Shown here in pieces: positions 30,167 to 57,881 of a stretch of DNA of 64,000 nucleotides. Origin of the DNA: Alkalimarinus alittae. Its GTDB lineage: Bacteria > Pseudomonadota > Gammaproteobacteria > Pseudomonadales > Oleiphilaceae. Made by a program: the position numbers and the translations under genes. The number at the start of each line of letters is the position of its first letter. Positions within the stretch are counted from its first letter, which is position 1. A model generated the notes under the pieces. That model searched no databases, was not told the DNA's origin, and was given only the letters and a program-made list of their open reading frames with translations. The DNA lies in NCBI RefSeq assembly GCF_026016465.1, contig NZ_CP100390.1, positions 2,270,001 through 2,334,000 of the forward strand, given 5' to 3'.

Positions 30167-31432
30167 TCATGATAAAAAGAACCAAGCAAGCAATATCCCT
30201 ATTAGCGACAATAAAAACCCTCCCCCAATATGTAATTGGAGTTCCTTTGTACCTAGCGCAACGGTTAAACCATATTTGAAAATTAGGTTCGCGATATAGG
30301 CTACTAAGATTGCGTTGGTAGCGATCGACGCATCAATATTACCGGTAGAAACAAGCCTTAGGCTCGACAAGGTTATCGCGTCTACATCGGTTAACCCTGA
30401 GATAAACGCTGCAATGTACACGCCTTCGGCTTGAAACGTGTCGTTCATCCAGGCAACCAGAAGCAATACACCCGCAAATATTAACGCAAAGCTAATTGCA
30501 GCCTTTAGCTCTGTCGGGTTTTCAATTTTAAACTCAGGCGCTTCTTTGTCTTTGTTTGGTTTGAATCGTCTAAGTAGCCAAAAAATATAGGCTATTCCAA
30601 GCAGTAACCCGCCCAATAAACCCGGTGCGAGAGACGTTAAAACGGAGGATTCAAAGATGGCTGTTACCGCTACGATTCGTAAGAACAACACCAAGTTTGA
30701 AAGCATGATGATGACAACGGCTTCGGGCATGAACGATGGTTGTTTAGCCGTATGACGTGAATAAACCATCGTAGTGGCGGTTGTTGATACCAGTCCGCCA
30801 AAAAAACCAATAACAAGGATGCCCTTTTTCTTACCAAGCAACCTTATCGCGAGGTACCCGGCAAGGCTGATACCAGAAATTAATACGACCAGCCAACCTA
30901 TTTGGTAGGGATTAATAACGTTATAGGGCCCATAGGTAGTATTTGGTAAGACAGGCAATAGGACAAAGGCAATTGCTGCGAACAGGAAGAACGACGTAAT
31001 GTCTTGTCGGGATAACTTATTCGGTACGCTGTGCAGCTCAGCCCTAAAATAGAGAATAGCGGTTGTTGCTATGGCGATAGCGGCAACAAGAATATTATGA
31101 CCAAACCACAACATGAAACCCAAGCCAAAAGTGATGATGCCTGCGATAACCGACGTTGTGTTAGGGTCAGTTTGGCAGTGATTGGATTTCTGCCATTGCG
31201 CAACAATTAATGATGTTCCAATGACCAGCGCCATCACAATGGTTATAAAAGGATACTGACCCATTTTCAGCACGTAACCAGACAGCGTACCTGCAATTGA
31301 AATCAATGCAAAGGTACGAATTCCTGCAATGGCTTCCTTATGCTGCTCTCGTTCAACACCGATTAAGAAGCCGATCCCAATACTCTGGGCAAATATAATT
31401 ATGTGATCGAGTTGAACTGCATAGTCATTCAA
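30167..31432 (-). CDS. MgtC/SapB-DUF4010 membrane protein
   Basis: A 421-residue integral membrane protein. The N-terminal part is the MgtC-like domain (SIGIGFLIGVEREQHKE, the GxxRE-type motif). The C-terminal part is DUF4010 with GGLVSTTATTMVYSRH and AFISGLTDVDAITLSSLRLV. About 12 helices can be counted. MgtC proteins act in Mg2+ or acid stress; those with DUF4010 are poorly characterised. It ends the long co-directional run that begins with the copper ATPase, with a 92-base gap from the gene before it, so it may have its own promoter. Confidence 0.85.
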   Translation of the reverse strand: MNDYAVQLDHIIIFAQSIGIGFLIGVEREQHKEAIAGIRTFALISIAGTLSGYVLKMGQYPFITIVMALVIGTSLIVAQWQKSNHCQTDPNTTSVIAGIITFGLGFMLWFGHNILVAAIAIATTAILYFRAELHSVPNKLSRQDITSFFLFAAIAFVLLPVLPNTTYGPYNVINPYQIGWLVVLISGISLAGYLAIRLLGKKKGILVIGFFGGLVSTTATTMVYSRHTAKQPSFMPEAVVIIMLSNLVLFLRIVAVTAIFESSVLTSLAPGLLGGLLLGIAYIFWLLRRFKPNKDKEAPEFKIENPTELKAAISFALIFAGVLLLVAWMNDTFQAEGVYIAAFISGLTDVDAITLSSLRLVSTGNIDASIATNAILVAYIANLIFKYGLTVALGTKELQLHIGGGFLLSLIGILLAWFFLS

Positions 31433-31524
31433 TTAATAGCCTCCGAGCGTTAAAAAATATTTTAATTAAATAATAATCAAATATATGCAGAGCATATCTA
31501 GAATACGCTTAAACTTTATGAGTA

Positions 31525-32067
31525 TTAGCGTTTGATTTGACAAAACCCCTGTGGAGGAACATTTAAGGCCGCATTGAACTTACTAGACATATTCTGAAAG
31601 GCAATGAGCCCTGTAAGTTCAATAACGTCATCCTCCGAAAAATATTTTGCAAGCCACTCTCGATCTTTCTCGGTGACCTGTTTGTTCGAAAGTGTGACTG
31701 CCTCAGCATAATTTATGGCGGCCTTCTCGCGCTCAGTAAACAAATCACTGTCTTTATAGCTCTCCAGGTCGGAGAGTTTTTCTTCACTGTTTCCACGTTT
31801 CAAAACCATCATGGAATTAATATCAACACAAAATTCGCACCAGTTAATTTGTGAGACACGCACGGTGATTAACGACCTTAAGGAGGGTTCAATGGGTGAT
31901 TTTCTGCGATCGATGGCACCATAGAGTAGTGCCAAGGCCGCAAACACTTTTGGGGTTCTTCCCCATAGCTTGGCGGGCTCCAGCACCTGCCCATAACGTC
32001 TCATTTGGTTCCAGAAGAATATTTTCACGTACCAAGGGTATTTCTTAGCTACATTTGATTCTTTCAT
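31525..32067 (-). CDS. Carboxymuconolactone decarboxylase family protein
   Basis: A 180-residue protein of the AhpD/CMD fold. The family motif appears as NWCEFCVDINSM at about residue 95, with the C-x-x-C pair of AhpD-like peroxidase reductases. It contains EREKAAINYAEAVTLS, also typical. It may act as a redox-active disulfide carrier. It lies 12 bases after the cytochrome c gene in the long operon-like run. The exact substrate cannot be set from sequence. Confidence 0.82.
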   Translation of the reverse strand: MKESNVAKKYPWYVKIFFWNQMRRYGQVLEPAKLWGRTPKVFAALALLYGAIDRRKSPIEPSLRSLITVRVSQINWCEFCVDINSMMVLKRGNSEEKLSDLESYKDSDLFTEREKAAINYAEAVTLSNKQVTEKDREWLAKYFSEDDVIELTGLIAFQNMSSKFNAALNVPPQGFCQIKR

Positions 32068-32079
32068 CTCATAGAATTC

Positions 32080-32568
32080 CTAATGTTCATCTTGATGATC
32101 ACCTAAAAGAAAGTGAACCAGATCATTTGCATCCCTTTCTGACATTTGCCACCTAGGCATAAGGTCGTTAAGGTTTTCTCCCGCGGGGTTCACGCCCTCA
32201 ATGATTGCCCTTTTTAGTGAATTGGAATCATAAACAGCGTGATCATGACCTTTACTTTCATGATCACCAGTTAAAGCGGCGGGGGTGAGTGCAGGCGAGG
32301 TAACCCAAAACCAAGGCCACATTCGATTCCCCCCCTCCCTATTAATACCGTGGCATGTTACACAGCCACCACCGTGCATTTTCATATGATGATGCCCCCC
32401 TGATGTAGGCACAACTGAATTATCTTCTGTGACCCCAGTGAAATAGATTTTTTCTCCATTTCCAGAAAAGGGTCCTTTTGTGTACGTGGTATCAGAGTGC
32501 ATACCTTCAGAACATGAAACTAAAAACAGTAGTGCAGATAACATCATCACTCGTATTATTTTTTTCAT
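32080..32568 (-). CDS. Lipoprotein cytochrome c
   Basis: A 162-residue protein with a lipobox (LFLVSCSEG) giving a lipid anchor after residue 18. One haem site is CVTCHG near residue 72. The sequence is rich in His and Met (SGGHHHMKMHGG) just before the haem. Its class I-like C-terminus (MPRWQMSERDANDLVHFLLG) would supply the distal Met. It probably passes electrons in the periplasm. It is downstream of the antiporter in the same run. Confidence 0.85.
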   Translation of the reverse strand: MKKIIRVMMLSALLFLVSCSEGMHSDTTYTKGPFSGNGEKIYFTGVTEDNSVVPTSGGHHHMKMHGGGCVTCHGINREGGNRMWPWFWVTSPALTPAALTGDHESKGHDHAVYDSNSLKRAIIEGVNPAGENLNDLMPRWQMSERDANDLVHFLLGDHQDEH

Positions 32569-32595
32569 ATTTATCTCCTCTTTTTTTAGTCTGAT

Positions 32596-33771
32596 TTATC
32601 TCTGTTGAAGGGGGTAACTGGCAATTGCGATACCAACTGGGGCAATGAGTGCCGTTGCCAAAGTCATCGTAACCAGAGCGATCATTGTATGTTCACTCAC
32701 ATGGCCTTGTTGCAACCCCATGCTAGCGACGATCAGGCCAACTTCTCCCCTAGGGAGTAACGCGAACCCCAAAGTCCAACGTTCTCTGTTACTAAAGTGA
32801 TTTTTTATGCACCATGGGCTAAACAGCTTCCCAAGAATGGCAGCCAACAATAAGGCTCCAGTCAACATCAATAGATGCTTCCCACTTACCGGTATTTGAG
32901 CCACCCTTATACCTATAGATATAAAAAATACGGGGACCATCCAGTTAAACAGCCTTTCGAACTGAATATGTGTTTTACGATGACTACTCCTACCATGGCT
33001 GACAATGGTGAGCATAAGCCCCGCAATAAAGGCACCTAAAGCACCAGACAATCCGACGATACTAGTGATAAGCGCACTTACGCCAACAATAAGTAGATAA
33101 CAGGTTACTCTTAACGGCAACCGATCAAGCAATGTGTAACGATTGATACTGCGAGCAATAAAAAACAAAGCTGTGCCAAGTACAAGTAATGCTCCCAAAC
33201 TAACCAACATCGAATAACCTAAAGAAATAAAGCCGGTGTTACTTGAACTCAACGAGTGCAGTGACGACATCAAATACAAGGCAACTACATCATCAATAAC
33301 CGCCGCCGCCAGTAATACATTGCCAAGTGGTGTATTTTGCAATTTGTACTGTCGAAACGACTCAATACTAATGCCAATACTCGTGGCAGAAAGGGCTGCG
33401 GCAACATACATAGCCTCATCAAACCGGTTATCAATAGCATACGACGCAATAAACCCCAAAATGAGGCTGGCAACGATACCAACAATACCGAGTAAACATC
33501 CTTTGGCAATATTTTGTCTAAACGCTAACCAATGAACGCCTAGGCCAGAAGCAAACAATAAAGCGACAACCGCGACATCAGCAGCGATAGCGGCTATTTC
33601 ATCAAAGCTAACCCAGTTGAGAAAAAGAGGCCCGACTATTACACCTACAAGAATATTGATAGCTGAATCGGGCAACCGCTTCTTCGTCAACCACTTGTTG
33701 AAGGGTATACAAGCTAAAAACCACCATGAATAGAAAGAGACTATTAGCCACTGACTGCATGCCTGTCGCAC
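32596..33771 (-). CDS. Cation:proton antiporter, CPA2/KefB-like
   Basis: A 391-residue membrane protein with about 12 helices. It carries family features including ALSATSIGISIESFRQ, VIDDVVALYLMSSL (the conserved acidic pair of CPA2), ALGAFIAGLMLTIV and FFISIGIRVAQI. It lacks a C-terminal TrkA-N domain, so is shorter than KefB/KefC. It exchanges K+ or Na+ for H+ in the inner membrane. Its start overlaps the end of the upstream dehydrogenase by 28 bases. Confidence 0.87.
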   Translation of the reverse strand: MRQACSQWLIVSFYSWWFLACIPFNKWLTKKRLPDSAINILVGVIVGPLFLNWVSFDEIAAIAADVAVVALLFASGLGVHWLAFRQNIAKGCLLGIVGIVASLILGFIASYAIDNRFDEAMYVAAALSATSIGISIESFRQYKLQNTPLGNVLLAAAVIDDVVALYLMSSLHSLSSSNTGFISLGYSMLVSLGALLVLGTALFFIARSINRYTLLDRLPLRVTCYLLIVGVSALITSIVGLSGALGAFIAGLMLTIVSHGRSSHRKTHIQFERLFNWMVPVFFISIGIRVAQIPVSGKHLLMLTGALLLAAILGKLFSPWCIKNHFSNRERWTLGFALLPRGEVGLIVASMGLQQGHVSEHTMIALVTMTLATALIAPVGIAIASYPLQQR

Positions 33772-34784
33772 CCAGCTTTTACCTGTAGCTGAGTTGAGAT
33801 CTCATTGATGAGCGGGCTACCAACAGAATAGCTATCGAGGTTTTTGACGGTTGTTTGAGCGATATTGGTTAATGCTTCACGGGTCAGAAAACCTTGATGA
33901 GCGGTAACAATCACATTTGGAAACGTTAATAATCGTGCTAATACATCGTCTTGCACACCGATGTCCGAAAAGTCTTCAAAAAATATATCTGCTTCCTCTT
34001 CGTAAACATCTAGCCCGGCACCAGCAATTTTATTTAGCTTAAGCGCGTCTATTAAAGAAGACGCCTGGATTAGCTCTCCTCTACTCGTGTTCACCAATAA
34101 TGCATTAGATTTCATCAAAGAAAGCACGTTTTTATTAACCAGGTGGTGGGTGGACGGGGTCAACGGAAGGTGCAGTGATACAACATCCGAGCTCGCCATT
34201 AACTTCTCAAGCGAGCAGTACTCAACATTTCCAAGCGCTAGCAACGTGACATCAACAGATTGATCAAAAGCTAAAACACGGCAGCCAAATCCCCTTGCTA
34301 TATGAGCGAAAGCCGCACCGATTTTACCGGTTCCGACCACCCCCACGGTCTTTCCATGCATATCAAATCCAACTAGACCGTCTAATGAAAAATTAAGTTC
34401 CCTCACTCGCTGATGGGCACGATGTATTTTCCTGTTGAGACAAAGAACCAACCCCATTGCGTGTTCTGCAACGGCATGCGGGGAATAACCGGGCACTCTC
34501 ACGACTTTGATTCCATGTACTGCCGCAGCATGCAGGTCAACATTGTTAAACCCTGCACACCTCAATGCGATTAGCTGAGTCCCCCTGCACGCCAGCTGAC
34601 AAATAACATCTTCATTAATTTGGTCATTCACAAAACAACAGACCGCTATATAACCTTTAGCCAGCTCCCAAGTGCGTTCGCTCAGCTGTTGGTCAATATA
34701 AACAGGTTGATGCTTGCTATTAGCGAAAGCCTCTTCGATATAAGTTTTTTCAAAAGGGTGGATATCAAATATGGCTACTTTCAT
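33744..34784 (-). CDS. D-2-hydroxyacid dehydrogenase, D-lactate-type
   Basis: A 346-residue NAD-dependent dehydrogenase. The Rossmann motif is GVVGTGKIGAAFAHIARGFG. The catalytic Arg is in LVNTSRGELI, Glu in DVYEEEAD, and His in VIVTAHQGFLT. The overall order and length fit fermentative D-lactate dehydrogenase (LdhA-like), which reduces pyruvate to D-lactate and reoxidises NADH. Its position beside phosphoketolase and nucleotide phosphorylase suggests that it disposes of reducing power from that pathway, which is an inference. Confidence 0.87.
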   Translation of the reverse strand: MKVAIFDIHPFEKTYIEEAFANSKHQPVYIDQQLSERTWELAKGYIAVCCFVNDQINEDVICQLACRGTQLIALRCAGFNNVDLHAAAVHGIKVVRVPGYSPHAVAEHAMGLVLCLNRKIHRAHQRVRELNFSLDGLVGFDMHGKTVGVVGTGKIGAAFAHIARGFGCRVLAFDQSVDVTLLALGNVEYCSLEKLMASSDVVSLHLPLTPSTHHLVNKNVLSLMKSNALLVNTSRGELIQASSLIDALKLNKIAGAGLDVYEEEADIFFEDFSDIGVQDDVLARLLTFPNVIVTAHQGFLTREALTNIAQTTVKNLDSYSVGSPLINEISTQLQVKAGCDRHAVSG

Positions 34785-34826
34785 TTCTGCACCTTCGTAA
34801 GAAAAACGTCTTTAGATAATTTTAAA

Positions 34827-35786
34827 TTAGGAAACCAATTCATTCTCCGATGCAAGACAACGTCTTAACTCTTGAGCGATTAGATTCGACACATCAATTT
34901 GAGCGTGAGGCTGTGCAATACTGTTGGTGGTGATTAATCGATCTGCCCCTGCGGCGAGTAAGTGAGAATCCGCGTTTTCTGCAAAAATCCCATGTACCGC
35001 AACACACCATACCGGATTTATAAACTGTTGCTTGAGCTGCAGTACAGACTCAATCATGGTATGACCACTTGAAATGATGTCATCAACCAGAATAATAGGT
35101 TGATCATCCAAAATATTCAGCGGCGGGAAATGCACGGTTACACTTCGATCACCGTGTCTTTCTTTTCGCGATACGCCACAAGGCACACCCGCTTGTTGAG
35201 CTACATCGCTAACCCACTGCTCACTCTCCTCATCAGGTCCCAACAAGAAGGCATTATTCGTATTTTCTTTTATCCACGTTGAAAGCAGTGTAGCCGCATG
35301 AAGTGACTTTGCAGGTATGCTGTAAATTTCAGACAATGAATGGTAACGGTGTAAGTGAGGGTCTACCGTCACCAACCAGTCAAACCTTTCATTAAGAAGT
35401 GACGCAAACGTTTTAGATGTTAACGCTTCGCCTTTATTAAATTTTGTATCCTGGCGCATATAAGCAAGATAGGGTGATACCAGGCCGACACTTTTAGCGC
35501 CTAAATCACGCAGGTCATCGGCAAGAAACAGTAATTTGAGTATTTTGTTGTCCGGTTGGTTTAACGAGCAAAGCAAAACAACATCCTGTCCATTTACATC
35601 GCTGTTAACATTGACATAACTCTCACCATCAGGAAATTGCCGCATAGCCAAACTGCCCGATGTTAAGTCGAGTTGACTTGCCAGTGTTTGAAATAATGTT
35701 TGATTACCATCAACTGAGAACAGTGTTCCTCTGGAAGCTTTCTTGTCATTAGTTCGATTAATCTTAGCAGCGCTAGTCATTATCAC
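34827..35786 (-). CDS. Ribose-phosphate pyrophosphokinase-like protein
   Basis: A 319-residue protein of PRPP synthetase type. It has VSPYLAYMRQDTKFNKGEAL (ATP/ribose-5-phosphate region), TVDPHLHRYHSL, and the PRPP-binding loop ILVDDIISSGHTM. It is diverged from housekeeping PrsA, as are relatives found beside AMP phosphorylases. Its start overlaps the phosphorylase stop by four bases, so the two proteins are made in step. PRPP synthesis from ribose 5-phosphate and ATP, or the reverse, is expected. Confidence 0.87.
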   Translation of the reverse strand: MIMTSAAKINRTNDKKASRGTLFSVDGNQTLFQTLASQLDLTSGSLAMRQFPDGESYVNVNSDVNGQDVVLLCSLNQPDNKILKLLFLADDLRDLGAKSVGLVSPYLAYMRQDTKFNKGEALTSKTFASLLNERFDWLVTVDPHLHRYHSLSEIYSIPAKSLHAATLLSTWIKENTNNAFLLGPDEESEQWVSDVAQQAGVPCGVSRKERHGDRSVTVHFPPLNILDDQPIILVDDIISSGHTMIESVLQLKQQFINPVWCVAVHGIFAENADSHLLAAGADRLITTNSIAQPHAQIDVSNLIAQELRRCLASENELVS

Positions 35787-37294
35787 TCTCCAATTATTAC
35801 AATATCTTCATTTGCTACCAAATATTCGTAGGCATAATTTAGTTCGCCCTTTGTTTCAGCATGAATATCCAATATGGACTGACCTTTCTCTACTGTCTGC
35901 CCTAAACGAACTTTCCAGTCTACCCCTGCAACAGATGACGCTGGTGCTCCGGCCAACTTGGCCAATCTAGCGAGTTTTCGATTGTCTACTTGTTTAATAA
36001 CACCTTTGTATTGTGCTTCGAATGAATAAGTATGAGCGGTATTATCCAGTTGTTTTAGCCCACCCTGAGATAGGCAAATTTCCATGAATTTTTGCCAGGC
36101 TTTACCAGTGTCTAAGGTGTTTGTGGCTAATATTTTGCCCTGTCCTTTGTCTGCTTTATTTCCCATTTCCAACAATAAACCCGCCAAGGTCAACGCGCGT
36201 TCTTTAAGGTTTTCTGGCGCATCGCCTTCACCTTTAAGCACTTTGAGTACGTCTCTCGCCTCAAGTCCTGCCCCAATCCCTTGCCCCACTGGTTCGTTTC
36301 CATCTGTAATGATGGTTTCAACCTTTAAATTAAGACGTTTTCCCACTTCAATAAGTTGTCGACTTAGATTCTCTGCTGCGTCTACCGTCCGCACTTTCGC
36401 AGATGCTCCTGTAGGGATGTCAATAAGAACGTGAGTGGACCCAGCCGCTATTTTTTTTGACAATACAGATGCTATCAACTGCCCTTCACTATCTAGATCA
36501 AGCACTTTTTCAACACGAATAAGCACATCATCAACCGGACTTAACTTTACACTTCCTCCCCACGCAAGCGAGGCACCGGTGCTCTTCACGACCTGTCTTA
36601 ATCGGCAGAGATCAAGATCAACACGCGTAAGTATCTCCATTGTGTCGGCGGTGCCAGCCGGAGAAGTAATGGCACGGGAAGATGTTTTCGGAATAAGCAG
36701 ACCGTTGGCCGCCACTATCGAGACAACGATAGGTGTCGTTCGATTGCCCGGTAGGCCCCCCACACAATGTTTATCTAATACAGGCGTTGTACCCCAGTCG
36801 AGCTGCTCACCTACTTTAACCATGGCATTGGTAAGCCAAGTGATTTCGTCAATACTTAATCGGTCACCGCCACATGCAGTGACAAAACTGGAAATTTCGA
36901 TGTCGTTATAGTGCCCTTTGGCAATATCACCGACAATTTCTATCAGATCTATTTCAGAGAAGGGTTGATTGAAAATCTTCGCTCTTAAGCTGGATAAAGA
37001 ATTAACAACAGGGGCGTGGGTTACCTTAACGCTCTCCCCACCTTTTAATTTCAACTTCGCGAACGCCGCATGGGAAAGTCCTACGGTGTCTGCATCCAAC
37101 TGATCAATATCAACCACGTAGAGTTTGGCAATTATGGTATGTTCACCGTGCCCCAATTGGATGCTGGCGAGTGCTTCAAACCCCTCTGAGCGACAAACAT
37201 GGCAATCTGAACGCATAAACGCCACCAGTTCATGGTGGCTATTAACCCCCATAGATTTAGCCATTAGCGTATGGGTTATATTCATACTACTCAT
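35783..37294 (-). CDS. AMP phosphorylase/thymidine phosphorylase family enzyme
   Basis: A 503-residue protein, longer than the about 440-residue DeoA and of the size of archaeal AMP phosphorylases. It has the extra N-terminal domain of the latter. The phosphate and base sites appear as KHCVGGLPGNRTTPIVVSIV and TSSRAITSPAGTADTMEIL. C-terminally GQGIGAGLEARDVLKVL and the terminal domain AGVDWKVRLGQTVEKGQSIL complete it. The archaeal-type enzyme cleaves nucleoside monophosphates with phosphate, giving base and ribose 1,5-bisphosphate. Activity on AMP or CMP rather than thymidine is inferred from the domain plan. Confidence 0.87.
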   Translation of the reverse strand: MSSMNITHTLMAKSMGVNSHHELVAFMRSDCHVCRSEGFEALASIQLGHGEHTIIAKLYVVDIDQLDADTVGLSHAAFAKLKLKGGESVKVTHAPVVNSLSSLRAKIFNQPFSEIDLIEIVGDIAKGHYNDIEISSFVTACGGDRLSIDEITWLTNAMVKVGEQLDWGTTPVLDKHCVGGLPGNRTTPIVVSIVAANGLLIPKTSSRAITSPAGTADTMEILTRVDLDLCRLRQVVKSTGASLAWGGSVKLSPVDDVLIRVEKVLDLDSEGQLIASVLSKKIAAGSTHVLIDIPTGASAKVRTVDAAENLSRQLIEVGKRLNLKVETIITDGNEPVGQGIGAGLEARDVLKVLKGEGDAPENLKERALTLAGLLLEMGNKADKGQGKILATNTLDTGKAWQKFMEICLSQGGLKQLDNTAHTYSFEAQYKGVIKQVDNRKLARLAKLAGAPASSVAGVDWKVRLGQTVEKGQSILDIHAETKGELNYAYEYLVANEDIVIIGE

Positions 37295-37303
37295 GATTAT
37301 TTC

Positions 37304-38659
37304 TTACCTCAGTTCAATGGTTTCGCCCATTTCGGGAATGACCGCGTTCAGACTTAATGTTTCGGTGAGCACTCTCCTAAGATTATCCGAAGCGGCAGGT
37401 TCCCCGTGGGTTATAATGACCTTGGTAGGGCTATTTTCAGAGGATTGTAGCCATTCGACCAGTTCGTTGTAATCAGCATGTGCTGAGAGCCCAGAGATCT
37501 GCCTTACTCCACACGTTATATTGGTGTATTTTCCGTAGGCTTTGATCTGTTTGGCCCCATCCAGAAGTGCTCTACCTCGCGTTCCATTTGCCTGGTACCC
37601 AGTAACTAAGAGCGTGTTACGGTGGTTCCCTCCAAATGCAATCAAATGATGTAAAATACGCCCGCCATTTAACATACCGGCCCCTGCAATAATAATTTTG
37701 GGGTGCGGGTTCATCGTAAGTTTCTCAGACTCCTGGGGCGTTTTTACAAATGTTATCCCCTTGCACATACGATGGCACTGCTCCTTACTCAATCTATGTT
37801 CAGAGTTGAAATCACAATATAACTTGGTCACATCAATTCCCATCGGACTATCAAGGTAAACCGGAATATCGGGAATCAGGCCTTTTTCCTTCAGCTCACT
37901 TATTGCGTATGACAAACCCTGGACACGACCAACAGAAAAAGCAGGTACCATTAGGGTTCCTCCCTTTTTAGCGGTTTGGAGAATGACCGTTTGTAACTCA
38001 GAGACCGGGTCGTTGCTTGCATGTAATCGATCACCATAGGTGGATTCAACAACAAGATAATCTGATGGCACTAACTGGTGTGGCGGCTTCATAGTTAAGT
38101 CATTAGGCCTGCCAACATCACCGCTGAACACAACGGAGCATTCGCCTAGCTGCAACTTAATAAATGCAGAACCAAGAATATGTCCTGCAGGATAGAAAGT
38201 TATCGCACCCTCGTTAATAGTGAGTGGCTGACTGAAGCTCACAGTTTTAAATTGGGCAATTGTTTTTTTTGCATCATTGATCGTATATAAAGGTTCCGCA
38301 GGAGTATGTTTGGAATAGCCATATTTGTTGGCACGCCGTGCGTCTTCTTCTTGAATATGCGCTGAATCCTTGAGAAGAATTTCTGCCAGGGCTTTAGTCG
38401 CTTCTGTACAGTAAATCGATCCTTTAAATCCTTCATTTACCAATCTAGGTAGATAACCAATATGATCAAGATGAGCATGAGTAAGAACGACAGCATCAAT
38501 CTCTACAGGTGGAAATGGAAAGCGGGTCCAGTTTCGGTTTCTCAGTGCTTTTACCCCCTGAAATAGACCGCAATCAATTAATAGCGTTGTTCCATTATGA
38601 CGGACAAGGTAACGGGAGCCAGTGACGGTTCCCGCGGCTCCTAGAAATTGAATATTCAT
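37304..38659 (-). CDS. Metallo-beta-lactamase/beta-CASP ribonuclease
   Basis: A 451-residue protein of the CPSF/beta-CASP RNA-processing family. Zinc ligands appear in LTHAHLDHIGYLPRLV and VFSGDVGRPNDL. The beta-CASP part has PAFSVGRVQGLSYAI, IIIAGAGMLNGGRI and the terminal QISGLSAHADYNELVEWL. Such proteins cut RNA as endo- or 5'-3' exonucleases. In this operon it lies between the phosphorylase (9 bases) and phosphoketolase (overlap of four bases). It could supply nucleotides from RNA, which is an inference. Confidence 0.9.
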   Translation of the reverse strand: MNIQFLGAAGTVTGSRYLVRHNGTTLLIDCGLFQGVKALRNRNWTRFPFPPVEIDAVVLTHAHLDHIGYLPRLVNEGFKGSIYCTEATKALAEILLKDSAHIQEEDARRANKYGYSKHTPAEPLYTINDAKKTIAQFKTVSFSQPLTINEGAITFYPAGHILGSAFIKLQLGECSVVFSGDVGRPNDLTMKPPHQLVPSDYLVVESTYGDRLHASNDPVSELQTVILQTAKKGGTLMVPAFSVGRVQGLSYAISELKEKGLIPDIPVYLDSPMGIDVTKLYCDFNSEHRLSKEQCHRMCKGITFVKTPQESEKLTMNPHPKIIIAGAGMLNGGRILHHLIAFGGNHRNTLLVTGYQANGTRGRALLDGAKQIKAYGKYTNITCGVRQISGLSAHADYNELVEWLQSSENSPTKVIITHGEPAASDNLRRVLTETLSLNAVIPEMGETIELR

Positions 38660-41115
38660 GCTTCTCTTTCCCTAATGAAGGTCATCACTTTTCTTGGGTT
38701 ACTTTTAAACTCGATAGCGTCAATTTCGTGAGAAGAGAGATAATCGGGAAGCGACAACTCAGATAATTCAACCGCGTTTTTTACGATATGGGCCCAACTG
38801 CATTGGTTTATAAATAGCATACCTGCCGTATCAAATGTGCCTCCTCGATTCAGATAACCTAAGAACCGAGAGCTAACAGATGACTCCTTCATCAGTACCT
38901 GACTGAGGAGTCCTTTCAATGCTTGAGGGCGCGTGTGTGTAACGAAAACCCTTACTTTCATATGGATAGGAAACAAGGTTGTGCAAACATCTTCAGTTTG
39001 ACAAAACGTGTTTTCAATAACGTCTCGAGGATCACGAAAGCGAGTGGGTTCTAAAATATAGACGACACGACTGTAAAGCCCGCAATCGTCAAGCCGAGCA
39101 GCAGCCTTAAGTACTTCCTGCAACTGGAAAGCACCTATAGCGGTCAATATCACCTCAGCTTTTGGGTGGTCTTTAACAATGCTACCACCCCGCTCAACCA
39201 GCTGCTGAGAGTCTTCTGGAGTAAATTGGCTCTGCATTTCAGTCTTGGGCGTTACCAGTGCAGCAATATTTCCTTGCGTTTGATATACGGAACGTAATGT
39301 TGCAACGGCTGAGTTAGCGTCGGCAGGAAATAGCACTCGGGCAGTATCGCTCATCTCCCCCCATAGAGTCTCACTTAAAGACGGGTCTTGATGAGATTGT
39401 TCATTTTTACCATTTTCCCATGCATGTGAGGTCAATAGTACAGGTACGGATAACCAACCTGGTGCCCGTTGGTGCTCTTTCTGATGGCGCGAAAATATAA
39501 TTTCCTGCCTTAATGCACCCAGCATTTTCATTGCAAATGCTTCATAGGTGACGACCAGATTGAGTCCACCCTTATTCCCGGAGGCAGCACTGATAACCAC
39601 CTCCTCGTTAAGCGCAGTAATAACGGCACCATTAACTGACTCAGCAACCCCCTCTTCAGGTAGCGTAACGCGATGTTTCAGCTTATCCAATGTCGCGCCC
39701 ATGCGATTACTACGCAATTCGTCAGGGTTACCCACTCTGACGCGGAGATTAGGGTTCGCATCGACTAGATTACAGAAATACTCATCAAGGGCTGCCATCG
39801 GAGAAACCATACTTCCCTCCGCATAGGAGGTATGATTATTCGGCTCTTTAATCACCACCTCTCGATGGCTTAAAGGGTGATCTTTTTCTTTAATCCGAAA
39901 GGGGCTCTCGTGATTATTAAATGTGTTTACGGAAGCCTCAATTTCTTCAGTCTTTACAAACAGGTTACCCGCATGTTCATTAAACAACGCACGAGAGTCT
40001 ATATCGTATTTTGGATTTCCGGGTAGTGGCGCTCCATGAGCTGCATTGGTGGCTGCTCCGTAAAAACCGTAACCTTTATCTGTTTCAGCAATCAAATACG
40101 GTATTTTTATTGGATATTGCATATGGCCTTGGGAAACCTGTTCGCTACAAGCTCGAAGCCTGGCTTCCGCTTCAAAAACCCCCCAGATGAATGCCGCCGG
40201 ATCACGTCCATCAATAGTGATCGGATGAAAACCGTTGAGTTGCAAGTGTTGATAGAACCACTCGTCCCCTCCTTGCTGATACATGCTTGAGCGCTGGTCG
40301 ATGCGCCGACCATTAGCAATCATTATTGGTGTAACTAAGCCACTGTCTTCTGCTCGCCACCAACGGCTAGCCCAATCGCTTCCACGTTGCTCTTCAAATG
40401 CACCATCACTGAGAAAGGCTACCAGACGCTCTCCAGGTAACGGCATGTGGACATACTGTAATTCTGCAAACCCTAAATAGCCGCCTTCAATCACACCACC
40501 TGCAGTATTCGCATTCACATGGCTTCCAAGCGGAACACCCGAAGAACCATCACTAGCAACCTTATAGCTATAAAAATCGGATACTAATGTTGATAAGCCG
40601 CTATCATTAAAACTGTATCTTTGTTTTTGCTCAGCGTACAGATTGCTAAGGAGAACATTGGTACTGTCAATGGCCGCAACACAATGCCCCTGCCCCATTA
40701 ACCAACTTCGGGTAAACCCTTCCAGATTGTTAGCCGCGAGATAACCAACATAAGCAGGGACCATATTCAACGAGCCACCGGTATGGCCTTGTGGGTTTTC
40801 TTTGAAATCAACATTTGAAAGTGGGCGGCCATCAAGGTAAACGCTGTTGGCATAGGTCATATGTACCACAAGCCACATCGCCGCGCTGGTAATTCGGTCG
40901 GCTGCTTCAAACACTGCCAACACATCCTCTAGTCGCTCATAACGCCCAGAGCAAATTAACTGTTGGCAAAGGTCAAACACCCGAACCTGGGTTATATCGC
41001 TGTGGCAAATAACTCCATAACCCTTAGCCCAACGAGCAAATACCGCATTACTGTTTCTATAAAGCGCGGCCCGTTGTTGTAACCGATGTAAATCTTCCTC
41101 GTTAACTGGAAACAT
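38656..41115 (-). CDS. Phosphoketolase
   Basis: An 819-residue thiamine-diphosphate enzyme of the Xfp family. It has NPQGHTGGSLNMVPAYVGYL, the family signature, LMGQGHCVAAIDSTNVLL, IPYLIAETDKGYGFYGAATN and the C-terminal STRTRPQ-like FVTHTRPQALKGLL. It splits xylulose 5-phosphate (and perhaps fructose 6-phosphate) with phosphate into acetyl phosphate and a sugar phosphate. The family's usual GDGE-x-E-TGPLA motif reads SDGAFEEQRGSDWASRWWRA here, so this is a divergent branch. It begins 42 bases after a small HMA-like gene and overlaps the next gene. Confidence 0.9.
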   Translation of the reverse strand: MFPVNEEDLHRLQQRAALYRNSNAVFARWAKGYGVICHSDITQVRVFDLCQQLICSGRYERLEDVLAVFEAADRITSAAMWLVVHMTYANSVYLDGRPLSNVDFKENPQGHTGGSLNMVPAYVGYLAANNLEGFTRSWLMGQGHCVAAIDSTNVLLSNLYAEQKQRYSFNDSGLSTLVSDFYSYKVASDGSSGVPLGSHVNANTAGGVIEGGYLGFAELQYVHMPLPGERLVAFLSDGAFEEQRGSDWASRWWRAEDSGLVTPIMIANGRRIDQRSSMYQQGGDEWFYQHLQLNGFHPITIDGRDPAAFIWGVFEAEARLRACSEQVSQGHMQYPIKIPYLIAETDKGYGFYGAATNAAHGAPLPGNPKYDIDSRALFNEHAGNLFVKTEEIEASVNTFNNHESPFRIKEKDHPLSHREVVIKEPNNHTSYAEGSMVSPMAALDEYFCNLVDANPNLRVRVGNPDELRSNRMGATLDKLKHRVTLPEEGVAESVNGAVITALNEEVVISAASGNKGGLNLVVTYEAFAMKMLGALRQEIIFSRHQKEHQRAPGWLSVPVLLTSHAWENGKNEQSHQDPSLSETLWGEMSDTARVLFPADANSAVATLRSVYQTQGNIAALVTPKTEMQSQFTPEDSQQLVERGGSIVKDHPKAEVILTAIGAFQLQEVLKAAARLDDCGLYSRVVYILEPTRFRDPRDVIENTFCQTEDVCTTLFPIHMKVRVFVTHTRPQALKGLLSQVLMKESSVSSRFLGYLNRGGTFDTAGMLFINQCSWAHIVKNAVELSELSLPDYLSSHEIDAIEFKSNPRKVMTFIREREA

Positions 41116-41157
41116 GGTGTTTGTCCTTTTAAAGCGTTCTTATTTAATCTGTTACCA

Positions 41158-41526
41158 CTATTTTTTCGTTTTATCTGATGACCCACTCGAATGGCATGAC
41201 CATGCTTTGTGTTTAACGTTGTCCTTAATGTTGTTGTCAGTGTACTCATACCAGCTTTTTTTGGTTCGGGTCCACCAGTCTTCCGCTGTATGAATAAAAT
41301 GGGTATCGAGAATTTTCTCAATATCTTCCAGGCTCTTGTACGAAGCATCGTATGCCACGCTGATTGTATGTTTTTCTTTAACCAAATGAATTTCATCAAT
41401 TCCCATTAATTGATCTATCTCTTTTTCAATTTGATCCCAAGGAATATCACCTTCGCCATCCAGTTTCAGGTGACGCTTTACGAGATAAGTTGTGTCTACA
41501 CTGGCTTTGTGCTCTTTTTTGCTCAT
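41158..41526 (-). CDS. Small protein with HMA-like half-domain
   Basis: A 122-residue protein. The ATG at 41526 is chosen because ggagg lies eight bases upstream; a start 15 bases earlier has no such site. Residues 10-70 have a beta-alpha-beta pattern like a heavy-metal-associated domain (TYLVKRHLKLDGEGDIPWDQ, then DEIHLVKEKHTISVAYDA), but lack the C-x-x-C pair. The basic tail is WTRTKKSWYEYTDNNI. A metal-free HMA-like fold is a guess. It lies between the cytochrome c and phosphoketolase genes in the run. Confidence 0.65.
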   Translation of the reverse strand: MSKKEHKASVDTTYLVKRHLKLDGEGDIPWDQIEKEIDQLMGIDEIHLVKEKHTISVAYDASYKSLEDIEKILDTHFIHTAEDWWTRTKKSWYEYTDNNIKDNVKHKAWSCHSSGSSDKTKK

Positions 41527-41571
41527 AGCAAATACCTCCAAGGCTTGTTACATTTCAAAAATATTGATTTT

Positions 41572-42042
41572 CTATTTCGATTGGTTCCTTTGCAGCCAAC
41601 GGCTATATATTTCATCGTTCCAGAAACTCTGGAAATAGGCGATCACCGCAATTTTTTCATCGTCTTTCAATACCTCTCTAAAGGGCGGCATTTTCCCTCC
41701 CATTTGAATGCCTCCATCATTAATTGTTTTCAACAAAACAGATATGGGGTGATGCCAGGCATGGGCCGACCCATTAAGTGGTGGCGGTGGGTAGCTACCG
41801 TCCTCCAAGGGTTGATTCCACCTAAAAATGCCGCGGGCTTTGGGGTTGTGGCAATCAATGCAGTTTGCGTCATAGATCTGGTTTCCCAATAACACCTGTT
41901 GCTCTGAGTACCATCTACCAGTTATTTCATCAGGCGCAGAAGTAGAAGAAGGTGCCTGGTCAGAACAAGCAGTTATTAATACGCTTGTAACGACGACAAA
42001 CGTAGCCAGCGACTTGGATTTACGAATAGTGCTACGCATCAT
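41572..42042 (-). CDS. Lipoprotein cytochrome c
   Basis: A 156-residue protein with a lipobox (LITACSDQ) and one haem motif CIDCHNPKARG near residue 61. It ends in a class I-type region with MGGKMPPFREVLKDDEKIAV (axial Met candidate) and IAYFQSFWNDEIYSRW. It is a periplasmic electron carrier. It overlaps the ICMT gene by 11 bases. Genes of this type often accompany DUF2933 and ICMT genes in copper clusters. Confidence 0.85.
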   Translation of the reverse strand: MMRSTIRKSKSLATFVVVTSVLITACSDQAPSSTSAPDEITGRWYSEQQVLLGNQIYDANCIDCHNPKARGIFRWNQPLEDGSYPPPPLNGSAHAWHHPISVLLKTINDGGIQMGGKMPPFREVLKDDEKIAVIAYFQSFWNDEIYSRWLQRNQSK

Positions 42043-42703
42043 AGACTCCTTTTTTGGAGTTTACGTTAAAGCGCTTTGGAATAAACCGTGGTGTATTTTT
42101 CGCGTATTCGCGGTATTCATCTCCAAACTCTTGGAGTGCCATCCGCTCTTCCCGTAAGGCCAGTCTGATATAAACCACTACCAAAATTGGAAACATCACT
42201 ACTGTGGGTATAGTGGGCCACTGCAACAGAAAGCCAAACATGATCATGATGAATGCGAGATACTGGGGGTGCCGACACCGCGCATACCACCCGGTTTTGG
42301 CTAGAGTAAATGACTGCTGCGCGTGATGAAGTACGTTCCACGCACTGGATAACAAAAAGAACCCAAGTACGATTACAACATTACTCAAAATATGAAGCGG
42401 GTCAAAATGAGCATTCCCCTCAAAGCCAAAAATAGTGTGTAGTAAATGACCATTCTCATGGTTTAGAAAATCAACACCGGGGTATTTTTCCGTTAACCAT
42501 CCAGACAAAAAATAAATGGTGAGCGGAAAGCCATACATCTCTGTAAATAATGCCACCACAAAGGCTGAAAATACCCCAAGGCTTCGCCAGTCCATTTTTG
42601 TTTTCGGCTTTACAAAGCTAAACGCAAAAAAGATAAAAATGGCTGAGTTTAGTACCACTAACATCCACAGCCCATAACCACTTTCACCGTGCATTGTTGT
42701 CAC
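42032..42703 (-). CDS. Isoprenylcysteine carboxyl methyltransferase-like membrane protein
   Basis: A 223-residue membrane protein with five or six helices. The SAM-binding signature of the ICMT/PEMT family appears as GWYARCRHPQYLAFIMIMFG, followed by LREERMALQEFGDEYREYAK. In bacteria the substrate of such proteins is unknown. It overlaps DUF2933 upstream by 20 bases. The neighbours (copper ATPase, cupredoxin, DUF2933, cytochrome c) suggest a role in metal or membrane stress. Confidence 0.83.
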   Translation of the reverse strand: MTTMHGESGYGLWMLVVLNSAIFIFFAFSFVKPKTKMDWRSLGVFSAFVVALFTEMYGFPLTIYFLSGWLTEKYPGVDFLNHENGHLLHTIFGFEGNAHFDPLHILSNVVIVLGFFLLSSAWNVLHHAQQSFTLAKTGWYARCRHPQYLAFIMIMFGFLLQWPTIPTVVMFPILVVVYIRLALREERMALQEFGDEYREYAKNTPRFIPKRFNVNSKKGVYDA

Positions 42704-43010
42704 CCTTATCTGTTCGTTGCTCTTTTTTGTCTTTCAGCGCGTCTTCATAACCGCGCAGATAATCGTCCATATCAACACTATCTTTTGCATGAGTCTGTTC
42801 CTCCCCTCCATGCCCTCCATGCCCTCCATGCCCTCCATGCCCTCCATGCATGAATATATGCATTAATGGGCAAAGCAGTATTATCAAAAAAGGTAAGATG
42901 GCGAACAGGTGCTGACGATGTTCCATTAAAAGGAAATAGCTCGTCGCAGCAATGAGGCCTAGTGCGGCAATACCCTTTGGGGTAAACCAAAACGATGGTT
43001 TTGAAGACAT
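42684..43010 (-). CDS. DUF2933 membrane protein with HGG repeats
   Basis: A 108-residue protein. ATG at 43010 is preferred because aggagg stands just upstream; an ATG 30 bases earlier lacks that. It has two hydrophobic helices (GIAALGLIAATSYFLL and LFAILPFLIILLCPLMHIFM) followed directly by five HGG repeats. The tail is hydrophilic (DDYLRGYEDALKDKKEQ). This is the plan of DUF2933, commonly found with copper resistance genes. Histidines at the membrane border could bind metal. Confidence 0.83.
   Translation of the reverse strand: MSSKPSFWFTPKGIAALGLIAATSYFLLMEHRQHLFAILPFLIILLCPLMHIFMHGGHGGHGGHGGHGGEEQTHAKDSVDMDDYLRGYEDALKDKKEQRTDKGDNNAR
42804..42848. repeat. Five tandem 9-bp repeats
   Basis: Five exact copies of ccctccatg run from 42804 to 42848 and encode the five HGG units of the DUF2933 protein. 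Exact copies suggest slippage-prone length variation. Confidence 0.88.
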
Positions 43011-43026
43011 TGGTTGATCCTCCTTA

Positions 43027-43389
43027 TTACGGTTTGTCACTAACGATTAATTCACCGCGGTACATTTGCATCTGGCAAGTAAAACTATACGTACCCGGCG
43101 TTAACGCTGGTAGGTTAATAGTCTTTTGTTTGTTAAGAGGCAATTCTTCGCTAATATCTAGGTCGGAAAAGACGACGGTGCCAGCACAAGGTGACGCTTC
43201 TTCCCGCAGAAACTTTATCGAGGCTGCCTCGCCTGCCGGAATTTTCAGGCGAGCCGGTTGGTAGACACCATTTTTGACAGTCACAAGAAGATCACTTGAA
43301 TTTTCGCTAACATCAGCAGGTTTATAAAGCCAAAACCACCAAACGATACCCGCAATAAGCAGAATCCCTAAGATATTTATTATCAACAT
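43027..43389 (-). CDS. Membrane-anchored cupredoxin
   Basis: A 120-residue protein. An N-terminal anchor (MLIINILGILLIAGIVWWFW) leads to a cupredoxin domain with PARLKIPAGEAASIKFLREE, SPCAGTVVFSDLDI and the copper-loop region YSFTCQMQMYRGELIV. The Cys in FTCQMQM and the Cys in SPCAG are possible ligands; the usual His pair is not seen. It begins two bases after the ATPase stop, so it is coupled to it. A role as periplasmic copper acceptor is likely. Confidence 0.82.
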   Translation of the reverse strand: MLIINILGILLIAGIVWWFWLYKPADVSENSSDLLVTVKNGVYQPARLKIPAGEAASIKFLREEASPCAGTVVFSDLDISEELPLNKQKTINLPALTPGTYSFTCQMQMYRGELIVSDKP

Positions 43390-43391
43390 AA

Positions 43392-45632
43392 TCAGTGCTC
43401 CTGCGCTTTGAATAAACGAAGCCGGTTAGCGTTAGTCACAACGGTGACAGAAGAAAAGGCCATAGCGGCCCCGGCAATAACCGGACTCAGTAAAAGACCG
43501 AAAAAGGGATACAGTACACCCGCCGCAAACGGAACGCCCGCTACGTTATAAATGAACGCGCCAAACAAGTTCTGTTTAATATTACGTAAGGTTGCTTTGC
43601 TCACTGCTATGGCATCTGCCAAGCCGTGAAGTGAACCGCGCATAAGCGTTATATCTGCACTCTCGATCGCTACGTCAGTTCCGGTGCCAATCGCAAAACC
43701 GACATTAGCTAATGCTAAAGCGGGCGCGTCATTGATCCCATCTCCCGTCATGCCAACGATCTCACCTTGCATTTGCAATTCGGCAACTTTATTCGATTTT
43801 TCTTCCGGTAATACTTCTGCGAAAAATTCAGTGATTCCCACTTTATTGGCTACTGCTTTGGCTGTTGCTCTATTGTCACCCGTCAGCATGACAACCCTGA
43901 TGCCGTTTTTCTGAAGACGTCTGATTGCCTCGATGGAATCTTCTTTGATGGGGTCAGACACTGCGATAATGGCAGCCAGCTGTCCTCCAACGGCAAAATA
44001 CATAGGTGTTTGTGCCTCAGCGGCCATTTGCTGAGCAGCATCGATTGCACCGTTAACGTTAATACGGCGATCACGCATCAGCTTTTCATTACCAAACAGC
44101 AGCTCTTTTCCTTCAACGACGCCTTCCACCCCATGCCCGGCGATAGCCTTAAATTTCTCAACGCCAGACGGAGACAAGCCTCGATCTTGGGCAGACTCAA
44201 CAATAGACATGGCCAAAGGATGTTCAGATCCGGCCTCGAGGCTTGCGGCTAGATGAAGCACGCCATCTTCATCTTTTGCATTAACTAGATGGATGTTTGT
44301 TACCTTAGGCGCCCCCAAAGTTATCGTGCCAGTTTTGTCGAGAATCATGGCGGTAATTTTGGATGCTGTTTGTAGTGCTTCACCATTACGTATCAATACT
44401 CCTGCTTCGGCGGCTTTCCCCACGCCAACCATAACAGACATCGGTGTAGCGAGCCCTAAAGCACAAGGGCAAGCAATAATGAGAACCGTCGTCGCCGACA
44501 CAATCGCAAATGCAACCGCTGGTTCAGGTCCAAAATTTAGCCACACCAAAGCACTAACCACGGCAATAATCATGACTACCGGTACGAAATAGGCCGAAAT
44601 GATATCGGCTAGTCTGCTAATGGGAGGCTTGGAGTTTTGTGCCCGTTTAACCATATTGATAATTTGTGCAAGTGCGGTATCTTTACCTACACGCGTTGCT
44701 TTAAATACAACCGAACCGGTTTTGTTCAGCGTACCGGCAACCACTTCATCGGACTCTTTTTTCTCTACTGGCATGGGCTCACCAGTCAGCATTGATTCGT
44801 CTATCGCTGTGTGCCCTTCAACAACAATGCCATCAACAGGAATTTTTTCACCCGGACGAACACGCACATGGTCGTTTAACAGCACCTTCTCTATTGGGAT
44901 ATCGATCTCTTTGTCATCACGTATCACTCTAGCGGTCTTTGCTTGGAGACCAATTAATCGTTTGATAGCCTGTGATGTTCGCCCTCTTGCCTTAAGTTCT
45001 AGAGCCAGCCCCAGATCAATAAGGCCAATTATCATGGCAGTTGCTTCAAAATAGACGTGCCGCGCCATATCTGGCACCACTGTTGGGAAGAAAACGACAA
45101 CCATGGAATAAATCCACGCAGTCCCTGTCCCCAGTGCAATCAGGGTATCCATGTTAGCGCTATGGTTCAAAAATGATTTCCAAGCGCCGACATAGAAGTG
45201 CTTACCTGAGAAATACATGACTCCTGCCGTGAGCAAGCCGATGATCAACCAGACTATACGTTCTGTTGTGGTCGTGACGGTCATCTCGCCCACAATAAGA
45301 CTGTAAGCCATCAACGGTATACCCAGCGTCAGAGCAATCGTCACTTCTCGCATCAGTCGCTTGTAATAGGCAAGGTCAGTCGCTTCTTTTTCATCCATTA
45401 AATCGTCTTCAGAAACGCCCTCCGTACCTTTTGCGTTATAACCGACGCTTTCAACTGCTTTAATCAAATCATCAATGGGTACCGAACCGTCTACAGAGAC
45501 AGTACGTTCGGCAAAGTTCATCTCGGCACCAACAACCCCCGAAACACCTTTCAACGCCCCTTCAATTTTGCCAACACAACTGGCACATCCAGCCCCTTCG
45601 ATGATCAGCTCAACTCTCTGTTCGTGATCCAT
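43392..45632 (-). CDS. copA: Cu(I)-exporting P1B-type ATPase
   Basis: A 746-residue transporter with one N-terminal HMA domain ([15 protein letters not shown]). Key motifs are the transmembrane [12 protein letters not shown], the phosphorylation site [17 protein letters not shown], the HP motif GSEHPLAMS, and the hinge [12 protein letters not shown]. The last two helices have FIYNVAG and [15 protein letters not shown], the residues that mark P1B-1 (Cu+/Ag+) pumps. It uses ATP to move Cu(I) from the cytoplasm to the periplasm. It heads a long gene run and follows a 19-base-spacer MerR-type promoter. It is separate from the multicopper oxidase also called copA. Confidence 0.95.
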
Positions 45633-45668: not shown

Positions 45669-45699
45669 AGGTTACACCTGTGTCCAAGACCCGAGTCAA
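45669..45699 (-). promoter_or_regulatory. MerR-type (CueR-like) promoter, copy 3
   Basis: On the minus strand -35 ttgact (45694-45699) and -10 taacct (45669-45674) are 19 bases apart. The spacer has cgggtcttggacacaggtg, which shares acacaggt with copies 1 and 2. It precedes the copper ATPase start by 37 bases and lies just after the regulator gene. Confidence 0.72.
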
Positions 45700-57873: not shown

Positions 57874-57881
57874 AGTGAAGT

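Follow-up and report, generated by a model that had tools for sequence, protein, structure and literature searches.

A recurring phosphoketolase-like, ribonuclease and phosphorylase gene cassette in a copper ATPase gene run of Alkalimarinus alittae

Gene content and organization of the copA gene run

The DNA analysed here, called the window, is a stretch of 64,000 nucleotides comprising positions 2270001-2334000 of the 4.25 Mb one-contig genome of Alkalimarinus alittae. The window carries a long run of same-strand genes that includes a copper ATPase gene, copA. Four genes in the middle of this run are the subject of this work, and encode a diverged phosphoketolase-family enzyme (XFP2), a beta-CASP ribonuclease (RNase), a phosphorylase-family enzyme (TP) and a phosphoribosyl pyrophosphate (PRPP) synthetase-like enzyme (PRPS). 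The promoter, the copper ATPase, these four genes and the adjoining dehydrogenase gene are as follows.

45669..45699, minus strand: MerR-type copA promoter (TTGACT, 19-base spacer, TAACCT), the sole copy in the window at up to three mismatches
43392..45632, minus strand: CopA-like copper P1B ATPase (Pfam HMA and E1-E2_ATPase)
38656..41115, minus strand: XFP2, diverged phosphoketolase-family enzyme (Pfam XFP, XFP_N, XFP_C)
37304..38659, minus strand: predicted beta-CASP ribonuclease, TTHA0252-like (PF10996, PF07521; 240.8 bits to 2dkf)
35783..37294, minus strand: TP, nucleoside monophosphate (NMP)/AMP phosphorylase-family enzyme (TIGR02645, 567 bits; closest solved structure archaeal 4ga5)
34827..35786, minus strand: PRPP-synthetase-like enzyme of a TP-linked subfamily (TIGR01251 and the motif GPDEESEQW)
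33744..34784, minus strand: LdhA-type D-lactate dehydrogenase homologue (5z20, 360 bits)

An earlier note on this DNA, made from the letters alone, described fifteen same-strand, tightly spaced genes from 45632 to 30167. All fifteen open reading frames (ORFs) were indeed on the minus strand, with intergenic gaps of -28 to +92 bases. The run was longer than noted and reached 54081. Seven more genes upstream share this orientation, none of them separated from its neighbour by more than 90 bases. They encode CusC, CusB, a 144-aa protein, CusA, a P-II-like protein, a cupredoxin and a MerR regulator, and bring the full co-directional run to 22 genes, from 54081 to 30167. The MerR gene and the promoter with a 19-base spacer, a spacing typical of MerR-type promoters, lie ahead of copA as in a MerR/CueR-type operon, in which copper activation would be putative. 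In a relative (L013) the copA promoter was identical at 30 of 31 bases, the single change being in the -10 element (TAGCCT). L013 and L064 both denote one stretch of an uncultured Oleiphilaceae genome of the same genus (G371), in which 18 genes, from the P-II-like gene to the MgtC gene, were found in the same order at 82-97% identity. Because all 18 genes are kept in order, the run is more than a chance assembly. XFP2 was found in two of the five same-genus genomes searched (own genome G000 and G369-G372), namely G000 and G371, and the XFP2 part of the run is therefore accessory.

Promoter-like sites inside the run were fewer than in shuffled sequence (19 versus 31.2) and terminator-like sites numbered 23 versus 16.2 in shuffles (sd 4.2); none of either kind was trusted. 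No structured RNA was found at gathering scores within 26000-55000. We infer that the run is co-transcribed, and copper control of the window copy is plausible.

XFP2 is a subfamily distinct from canonical phosphoketolases

XFP2 exceeded the Pfam gathering scores (in brackets) of XFP, XFP_N and XFP_C with 146 (22), 49.8 (23.7) and 23.7 (23.4) bits, respectively, and is homologous to phosphoketolases, with 91 bits to 9cd3. Its identity to canonical phosphoketolases was about 22-28% among those listed. The segments GDGEAETG and DHNGFSHQ were present in both canonical enzymes aligned and in none of 23 XFP2 rows, while six other motifs were common to all 23 aligned XFP2 rows and absent from the two canonical enzymes. 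His 111, 144, 199, 360 and 575 and Glu 504 of XFP2 were aligned and kept in both references, and His 564 in one of the two. The structure prediction for XFP2 failed (predicted local distance difference test score, pLDDT, 32.6). Judged by these sequence features, XFP2 is a subfamily distinct from canonical phosphoketolases.

Among the best 40 of 177 matching plasmid records, 15 carried XFP2 at 48-56% identity, after which identity dropped to 25-26%. Fourteen of these 15 records among the matches listed were named 'xylulose 5-phosphate 3-epimerase' (e.g., L104, L105, L107-L112) and one was named phosphoketolase; the epimerase name is probably a misnomer. As side observations, a P-type ATPase gene related to the 'cation-translocating' one of Criblamydia lay 56-1289 bases from XFP2 in L066, L067, L070, L071 and L138, and MT836048.1, an unannotated 13.5 kb 'Bacteriophage sp.' record, contained XFP2 at 53.9% identity.

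The phosphorylase, the ribonuclease and the TP-linked PRPS

TP passed both TIGR02645 (cut-off 434.6) and PRK04350 (640 bits, cut-off 434), which describe an archaeal-type phosphorylase family. Against solved structures, it scored 346 bits with archaeal 4ga5 and 134 bits with the best pyrimidine phosphorylase. A segment that we chose as the motif of the family, SSRAITSxAGTAD, occurred in 4ga5 as well as in the window TP. The strict pattern matched 82 of 94 TP rows; the others were near-variants (e.g., RSITSPAG) or fragments. An archaeal enzyme of this kind converts NMPs to ribose-1,5-bisphosphate, according to the part of the literature drawn on here (PMC8376864). A second set of metallo-beta-lactamase-fold (MBL), TP and PRPS genes was observed in the same genome without copper genes (L010:6276-12404, corresponding to G000:C1 at about 3065275-3071403). 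Its TP is 53% identical, and polysaccharide genes and another MBL-fold gene adjoin it.

The beta-CASP nuclease named in the earlier note was recovered as such: the protein has MBL, Beta-Casp and RMMBL domains, its closest solved relative is the Thermus ribonuclease TTHA0252, and it is a predicted RNase. Identity as Cas14 of Type VII CRISPR systems was rejected, the score being 398 bits against the NF045584 cut-off of 800.

The PRPS-like protein exceeded the TIGR01251 family cut-off (208.9 versus 113 bits), so that the name PRPP synthetase given earlier holds for the family. It does not hold for a segment in which three solved PRPP synthetases, when aligned, have PDxGG or PDxGA and the PRPS-like protein has GPDxE[SA]x[QP]W. 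Of the distinct PRPS rows taken from loci in which TP is present as well, 73 of 73 carried the latter motif. Eight genomes contained 23 members of the PRPS family, 14 with GPDxE[SA]x[QP]W and nine with PDxGG. Thirteen of the 14 motif-bearing copies had TP within the fetched stretch or adjoining by coordinates, and the fourteenth (G367:C12:17280-18140) was 3.8 kb from TP with XFP2 in between. With 73 of 73 TP-linked rows bearing the motif and 9 of 9 other copies having PDxGG, the motif tracks the partnership with TP. The change suggests an altered or specialised reaction. We found no description of this motif, of the XFP2 subfamily or of a copper-linked cassette in the open-licence literature.

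Recurrence of the cassette in other genomes

Locus frequencies were taken from two samples only, a class sample of 369 genomes and a phylum sample of 398 genomes, which share some genomes. TP was found in 83 genomes of the class sample, including ordinary thymidine phosphorylases at 28-32% identity, and 20 loci scored above 480 bits; XFP2 was found in 10 genomes at 11 loci. In the phylum sample, TP and XFP2 were found in 40 and 13 genomes, respectively, XFP2 at 14 loci. Together with 14 further phylum loci above 470 bits, which were placed by score, the 20 class loci make up the 34 related TP loci referred to below. A sister-clade sample consisted of 14 fetched loci, a subset of the sister-clade matches. 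Fragments (G105 and G186), ordinary thymidine phosphorylases and duplicates (L001, L002 and L013) were excluded from the counts, and short contigs (e.g., L079, L081, L088 and L090) can conceal neighbours.

PRPS was located within 3 kb of TP at 17/19 class loci besides the window, at 11/14 of the further phylum loci and, in the sister clade, at 13/14. As the most constant partner of TP, the TP-linked PRPS is the best candidate for the step at ribose-1,5-bisphosphate. A beta-CASP gene was within 10 kb of TP at 14/19, 8/14 and 3/14 of these loci, respectively; the three in the sister clade had 36-38% identity, and this count falls to 0/14 under a 40% identity limit. XFP2 was within 10 kb of TP at 5 of 11 class loci and 5 of 14 phylum loci, four of them in common. 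Among the matches listed, 15 plasmid records held XFP2, several of them near copies; TP lay within 10 kb in 12. Of the remaining three, one had an RNase nearby with TP not among the matches listed, one had TP 58 kb away and one had none. The order of the genes was shuffled, being CopA-DUF2933-ICMT-127aa-TP-PRPS-RNase-AckA-XFP2 in L074 and ATPase-PRPS-XFP2-RNase-TP in L109 and L110.

Acetate kinase, which the earlier note had found missing from this run, is indeed absent from it. It is encoded elsewhere in the genome (484 bits) and was within 10 kb of 7 of the 11 class XFP2 loci, at a distance of only 6-52 bases in five of those. The 11 class loci and nine further phylum loci give 20 distinct XFP2 loci, and 17 of them had acetate kinase, TP or a beta-CASP gene no more than 10 kb away. 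Seven of these 17 belong to one family (f3: L068 and L156-L161), in which a beta-CASP gene, 29-39% identical to that of the window or its paralogue, is the only one of the three nearby. For these two reasons, the seven are neither independent loci nor close copies of the RNase. In all seven, XFP2 is divergent from the beta-CASP gene, 180-553 bases apart, and no TP was seen. The arrangement resembles that of PA3613 and PA3614 of Pseudomonas aeruginosa, which, on the matching arrangement, are a putative XFP2 and its RNase neighbour. In the part of the source used here, PA3613 (phosphoketolase) and PA3614 (MBL) have adjacent locus numbers and are among anaerobiosis-linked genes (PMC8575079).

Overall, a real recurring core in Proteobacteria consists of XFP2, the beta-CASP RNase, TP and PRPS, in shuffled order and often with acetate kinase, and the idea of the earlier note that its metabolic enzymes belong together stood up. 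Its lactate step did not belong to this core. The closest solved relatives of the dehydrogenase are D-lactate dehydrogenases, the nearest being fermentative LdhA (5z20), and the activity is putative; no NCBIfam cut-off was reached. A homologous dehydrogenase was within 10 kb of only 3 of the 19 class TP loci besides the window, one of them just 24% identical, and of none of the 14 further phylum loci. The lactate step is optional and outside the recurring core.

Judged from translations, L065 and L074 both have HflK/C-like genes next to the cassette. L065 also has LemA-, TPM- and GAPDH-like genes there and L074 the start of an FtsH-like gene, and such neighbours suggest broad stress islands.

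Linkage to copper resistance genes

Of the 20 class TP loci, six had a CopA-like pump within 10 kb, namely the window and 5 of the 19 others, compared with a random expectation of 0.36 (P for at least six, about 8e-7). The same was true of 5 of the 14 further phylum loci, giving 11 of the 34 related loci overall, and of none of the 14 fetched sister-clade TP loci. The window CopA itself had four matches in its own genome at E<=1e-50. In a quick TP tree, the rows labelled for copper or XFP2 were all within one clade of 36 rows (20 of 36 labelled), and neither label occurred in a 40-row sister clade or in 15 archaeal and candidate phyla radiation (CPR) rows. At least nine changes were required for the copper label and six for the XFP2 label. 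The plasmid rows were hand-picked (top matches and XFP2 carriers) and the copper label of L065 was set by hand; because the rows include plasmids picked for XFP2, these counts speak for repeated change and not for frequency. A sign test of XFP2 against copper on this tree gave no signal, with too few pairs.

The earlier note had proposed comparing gene order to see whether the block travels with copA. It does so repeatedly and not generally: 23 of the 34 related TP loci and 7 of the 11 class XFP2 loci had no CopA-like pump within 10 kb. Copper as a general purpose of the block is not supported by these counts, the note itself having held that a block found mostly without copper genes would refute it. 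The copper link is repeated and not general, and a copper-specific purpose of the window copy is plausible.

The loci without a pump are also what would be expected if the cassette were a passenger, that is, a general low-oxygen or stress module inserted by chance into a mobile copper island, with shared mobility and no functional tie to copper. Other loci pair the cassette with universal stress proteins, HflK/C-like, FtsH, LemA, GAPDH or N-ATPase genes, and integrase- and insertion sequence (IS)-like ORFs, judged from their translations, occur elsewhere in the window. This explanation sits poorly with a proximity to CopA far over chance expectation, with the at least nine changes of the copper label on the TP tree, and with an entire run that points in one direction behind the copA promoter and is unchanged in a second species. 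We regard it as unlikely, and as the most serious of the rival explanations.

Fate of ribose-1,5-bisphosphate and comparison with known systems

The phosphorylase is homologous to the entry enzyme of the archaeal pentose bisphosphate pathway. Unlike that pathway, which uses ribose-1,5-bisphosphate isomerase and form III RuBisCO, the eight genomes had neither, as judged for the isomerase by the cut-off of TIGR00511: no genome passed it, weaker matches were found in four, and RuBisCO was matched in none. The weaker matches may be methylthioribose-1-phosphate isomerase. An archaeal route to RuBisCO was rejected on these grounds. The same result removes a step from the route proposed in the earlier note, in which nucleotides are converted through the isomerase to pentose phosphates and then to acetyl phosphate and lactate, specifically under copper stress. 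The gene content of the run agrees with that route, but the isomerase result, the place of the lactate gene outside the recurring core and the many copies without a copper link make it highly improbable as a whole. PhnN was over the cut-off in two of the eight genomes, the own genome and G371, and was rejected as a general exit from ribose-1,5-bisphosphate; with a copy over the cut-off in the own genome, PRPP could be the exit here.

The resemblance to phosphoketolase-acetate kinase fermentation lies in the homologous enzyme and in the frequent adjacency of acetate kinase. Unlike the phosphoketolases of that pathway, XFP2 is of the diverged kind described above. Among the late steps, the conversion of acetyl phosphate to ATP has the best support, from acetate kinase adjacency and the predicted copy in the own genome.

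The same enzyme families are found in Bradyrhizobium diazoefficiens, in bll3117-bll3115 (TP, PRPS and MBL) and bll2518-bll2517 (phosphoketolase and acetate kinase). In the portions of the two papers used here, MBL, PRPS, TP and a phosphoketolase were among 62 proteins induced at 0.5% oxygen (PMC6515984), and a later paper reported reduced levels of bll3115, bll3117, bll2518 and bll2517 when fixK2 was deleted, and a FixK2 box ahead of each of two predicted operons, bll3116 being named only as an operon member (PMC9104804). Equivalents under one low-oxygen regulator fit a role in ATP salvage when respiration fails. Unlike the run described here, the Bradyrhizobium genes form two separate operons under oxygen control and, as the operons are predicted in that paper, are without a copper pump. 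Control of the window copy by an oxygen-type regulator was rejected; FNR/FixK-like boxes were not in excess (17 versus 11.1 expected, with 9 of 100 shuffles having as many).

Another explanation is nucleotide recycling: stress-damaged RNA would supply bases and PRPP by way of the RNase, TP and PRPS, and the neighbouring XFP2 and LdhA would have separate roles. The sister-clade TP loci fit this picture, having PRPS close by in all but one case, XFP2 in 0/14 and a beta-CASP gene in three, and so does PhnN of the own genome, which could make PRPP from ribose-1,5-bisphosphate. Recycling does not account for the repeated adjacency of XFP2 to TP and to acetate kinase, nor for the FixK2 dependence shared in Bradyrhizobium, and we consider it quite improbable.

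Other genes of the run

The remaining features from the MerR gene to the end of the run are as follows.

45723..46175, minus strand: MerR-family regulator, upstream of copA (Pfam MerR_1 and MerR-DNA-bind), a putative metal sensor
43027..43389, minus strand: cupredoxin (PF13473, 97.9 bits)
42684..43040, minus strand: DUF2933 His-rich protein (PF11666, 75.8 bits)
42032..42703, minus strand: ICMT/PEMT-like methyltransferase (PF04140, 26.4 bits versus cut-off 24)
41572..42042, minus strand: cytochrome c (PF13442)
41158..41541, minus strand: 127-aa HMA-like protein without CxxC (HMA 13.8 bits, below the 24.8 cut-off)
32596..33771, minus strand: CPA2 cation/proton antiporter (PF00999, 186 bits)
32080..32568, minus strand: cytochrome c (PF00034)
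31525..32067, minus strand: AhpD/CMD-like protein (PF02627)
30167..31432, minus strand: MgtC/DUF4010 membrane protein (PF13194 and PF02308)

The ICMT-like gene was paired with DUF2933 in L006, L065, L074, L104, L105 and L110. The predicted structure of the 127-aa protein was a weak b-a-b-b-a HMA-like fold (pLDDT 49.8), and its homologues adjoin TP in L006, L065, L074 and L143. MgtC-like genes were also near the cassette or TP in L107, L108, L148 and L152. The P-II-like protein of 100 aa (window 46876-47178), between CusA and cupredoxin, scored 25.6 bits with PF00543 against a cut-off of 25 and is kept in L013. Reading of translations around the copper genes (window 4661-63190) showed integrase-like, IS66-like and IS21-like pieces and a truncated DsbD-like gene at 57848-58453. 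Compared with plasmids at the DNA level, the run matched over just a 4% stretch, across DUF2933-ICMT, and a scan of viral_contigs, sensitive to close relatives only, found no relative carried by phage.

Proposed function of the cassette

On balance, we lean towards the view that XFP2, the beta-CASP RNase, TP and the PRPS-like enzyme, in the middle of the run, make up a mobile cassette for energy salvage that was captured downstream of a MerR-type copA promoter. The gene order, the recurrence and the protein families were observed directly, and the shared low-oxygen regulation in Bradyrhizobium is published. The beta-CASP RNase would release 5'-mononucleotides, which TP would phosphorolyse to base and ribose-1,5-bisphosphate, as the enzyme families indicate. 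The TP-linked PRPS-like enzyme, perhaps with others, would carry the ribose into the pentose-phosphate pool, and XFP2 would split a pentulose phosphate into acetyl phosphate and glyceraldehyde 3-phosphate. ATP would then come from the acetate kinase that another part of the genome encodes, and LdhA could reoxidise NADH. The gain would be ATP and carbon once respiration fails, which is at low oxygen where it was measured and probably under copper here. In Alkalimarinus alittae, we infer every one of these reactions and the copper response.

Several observations weigh against this proposal. The names phosphoketolase and AMP phosphorylase in the earlier note hold for the Pfam domains and the TIGR02645 family, respectively, and fail at stricter levels: the best score of XFP2 was 146 bits against NCBIfam phosphoketolase cut-offs of at least 777, and TP reached 485.2 bits against the 535 of the AMP phosphorylase equivalog TIGR03327 (AMP_phos), so that both substrate assignments are provisional. 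XFP2 often occurred without TP nearby (6 of 11 class loci and 9 of 14 phylum loci), and most related TP loci were without a copper pump. To these are added the lack of isomerase hits over the cut-off and of RuBisCO matches, the restriction of PhnN to two genomes, and the lack of an excess of FNR/FixK-like boxes in the window. For Bradyrhizobium, the table in the part of PMC6515984 used here does not mark the genes as FixK2 targets, and the phosphoketolase there may be of the canonical kind rather than an XFP2.

A bolder form of the salvage proposal is a tentative possibility. In this form, the PRPS-like protein would be a new enzyme acting directly on ribose-1,5-bisphosphate and XFP2 a new class of phosphoketolase, and with TP they would convert nucleotides to acetyl phosphate without ribose-1,5-bisphosphate isomerase, PhnN or RuBisCO, a route that copper islands would have repeatedly recruited as an emergency ATP supply.

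The low-oxygen salvage chemistry proposed for the cassette is of a known kind. Its arrangement is new, and it includes two signature subfamilies, XFP2 and the TP-linked PRPS. Both are direct biochemical targets, the one for its substrate and the other as a PRPS relative beside an NMP phosphorylase in genomes without ribose-1,5-bisphosphate isomerase over the cut-off. Accounts of metal resistance usually centre on export and binding. Resistance would be partly metabolic if copper islands also carry an ATP supply drawn from the cell's own RNA.

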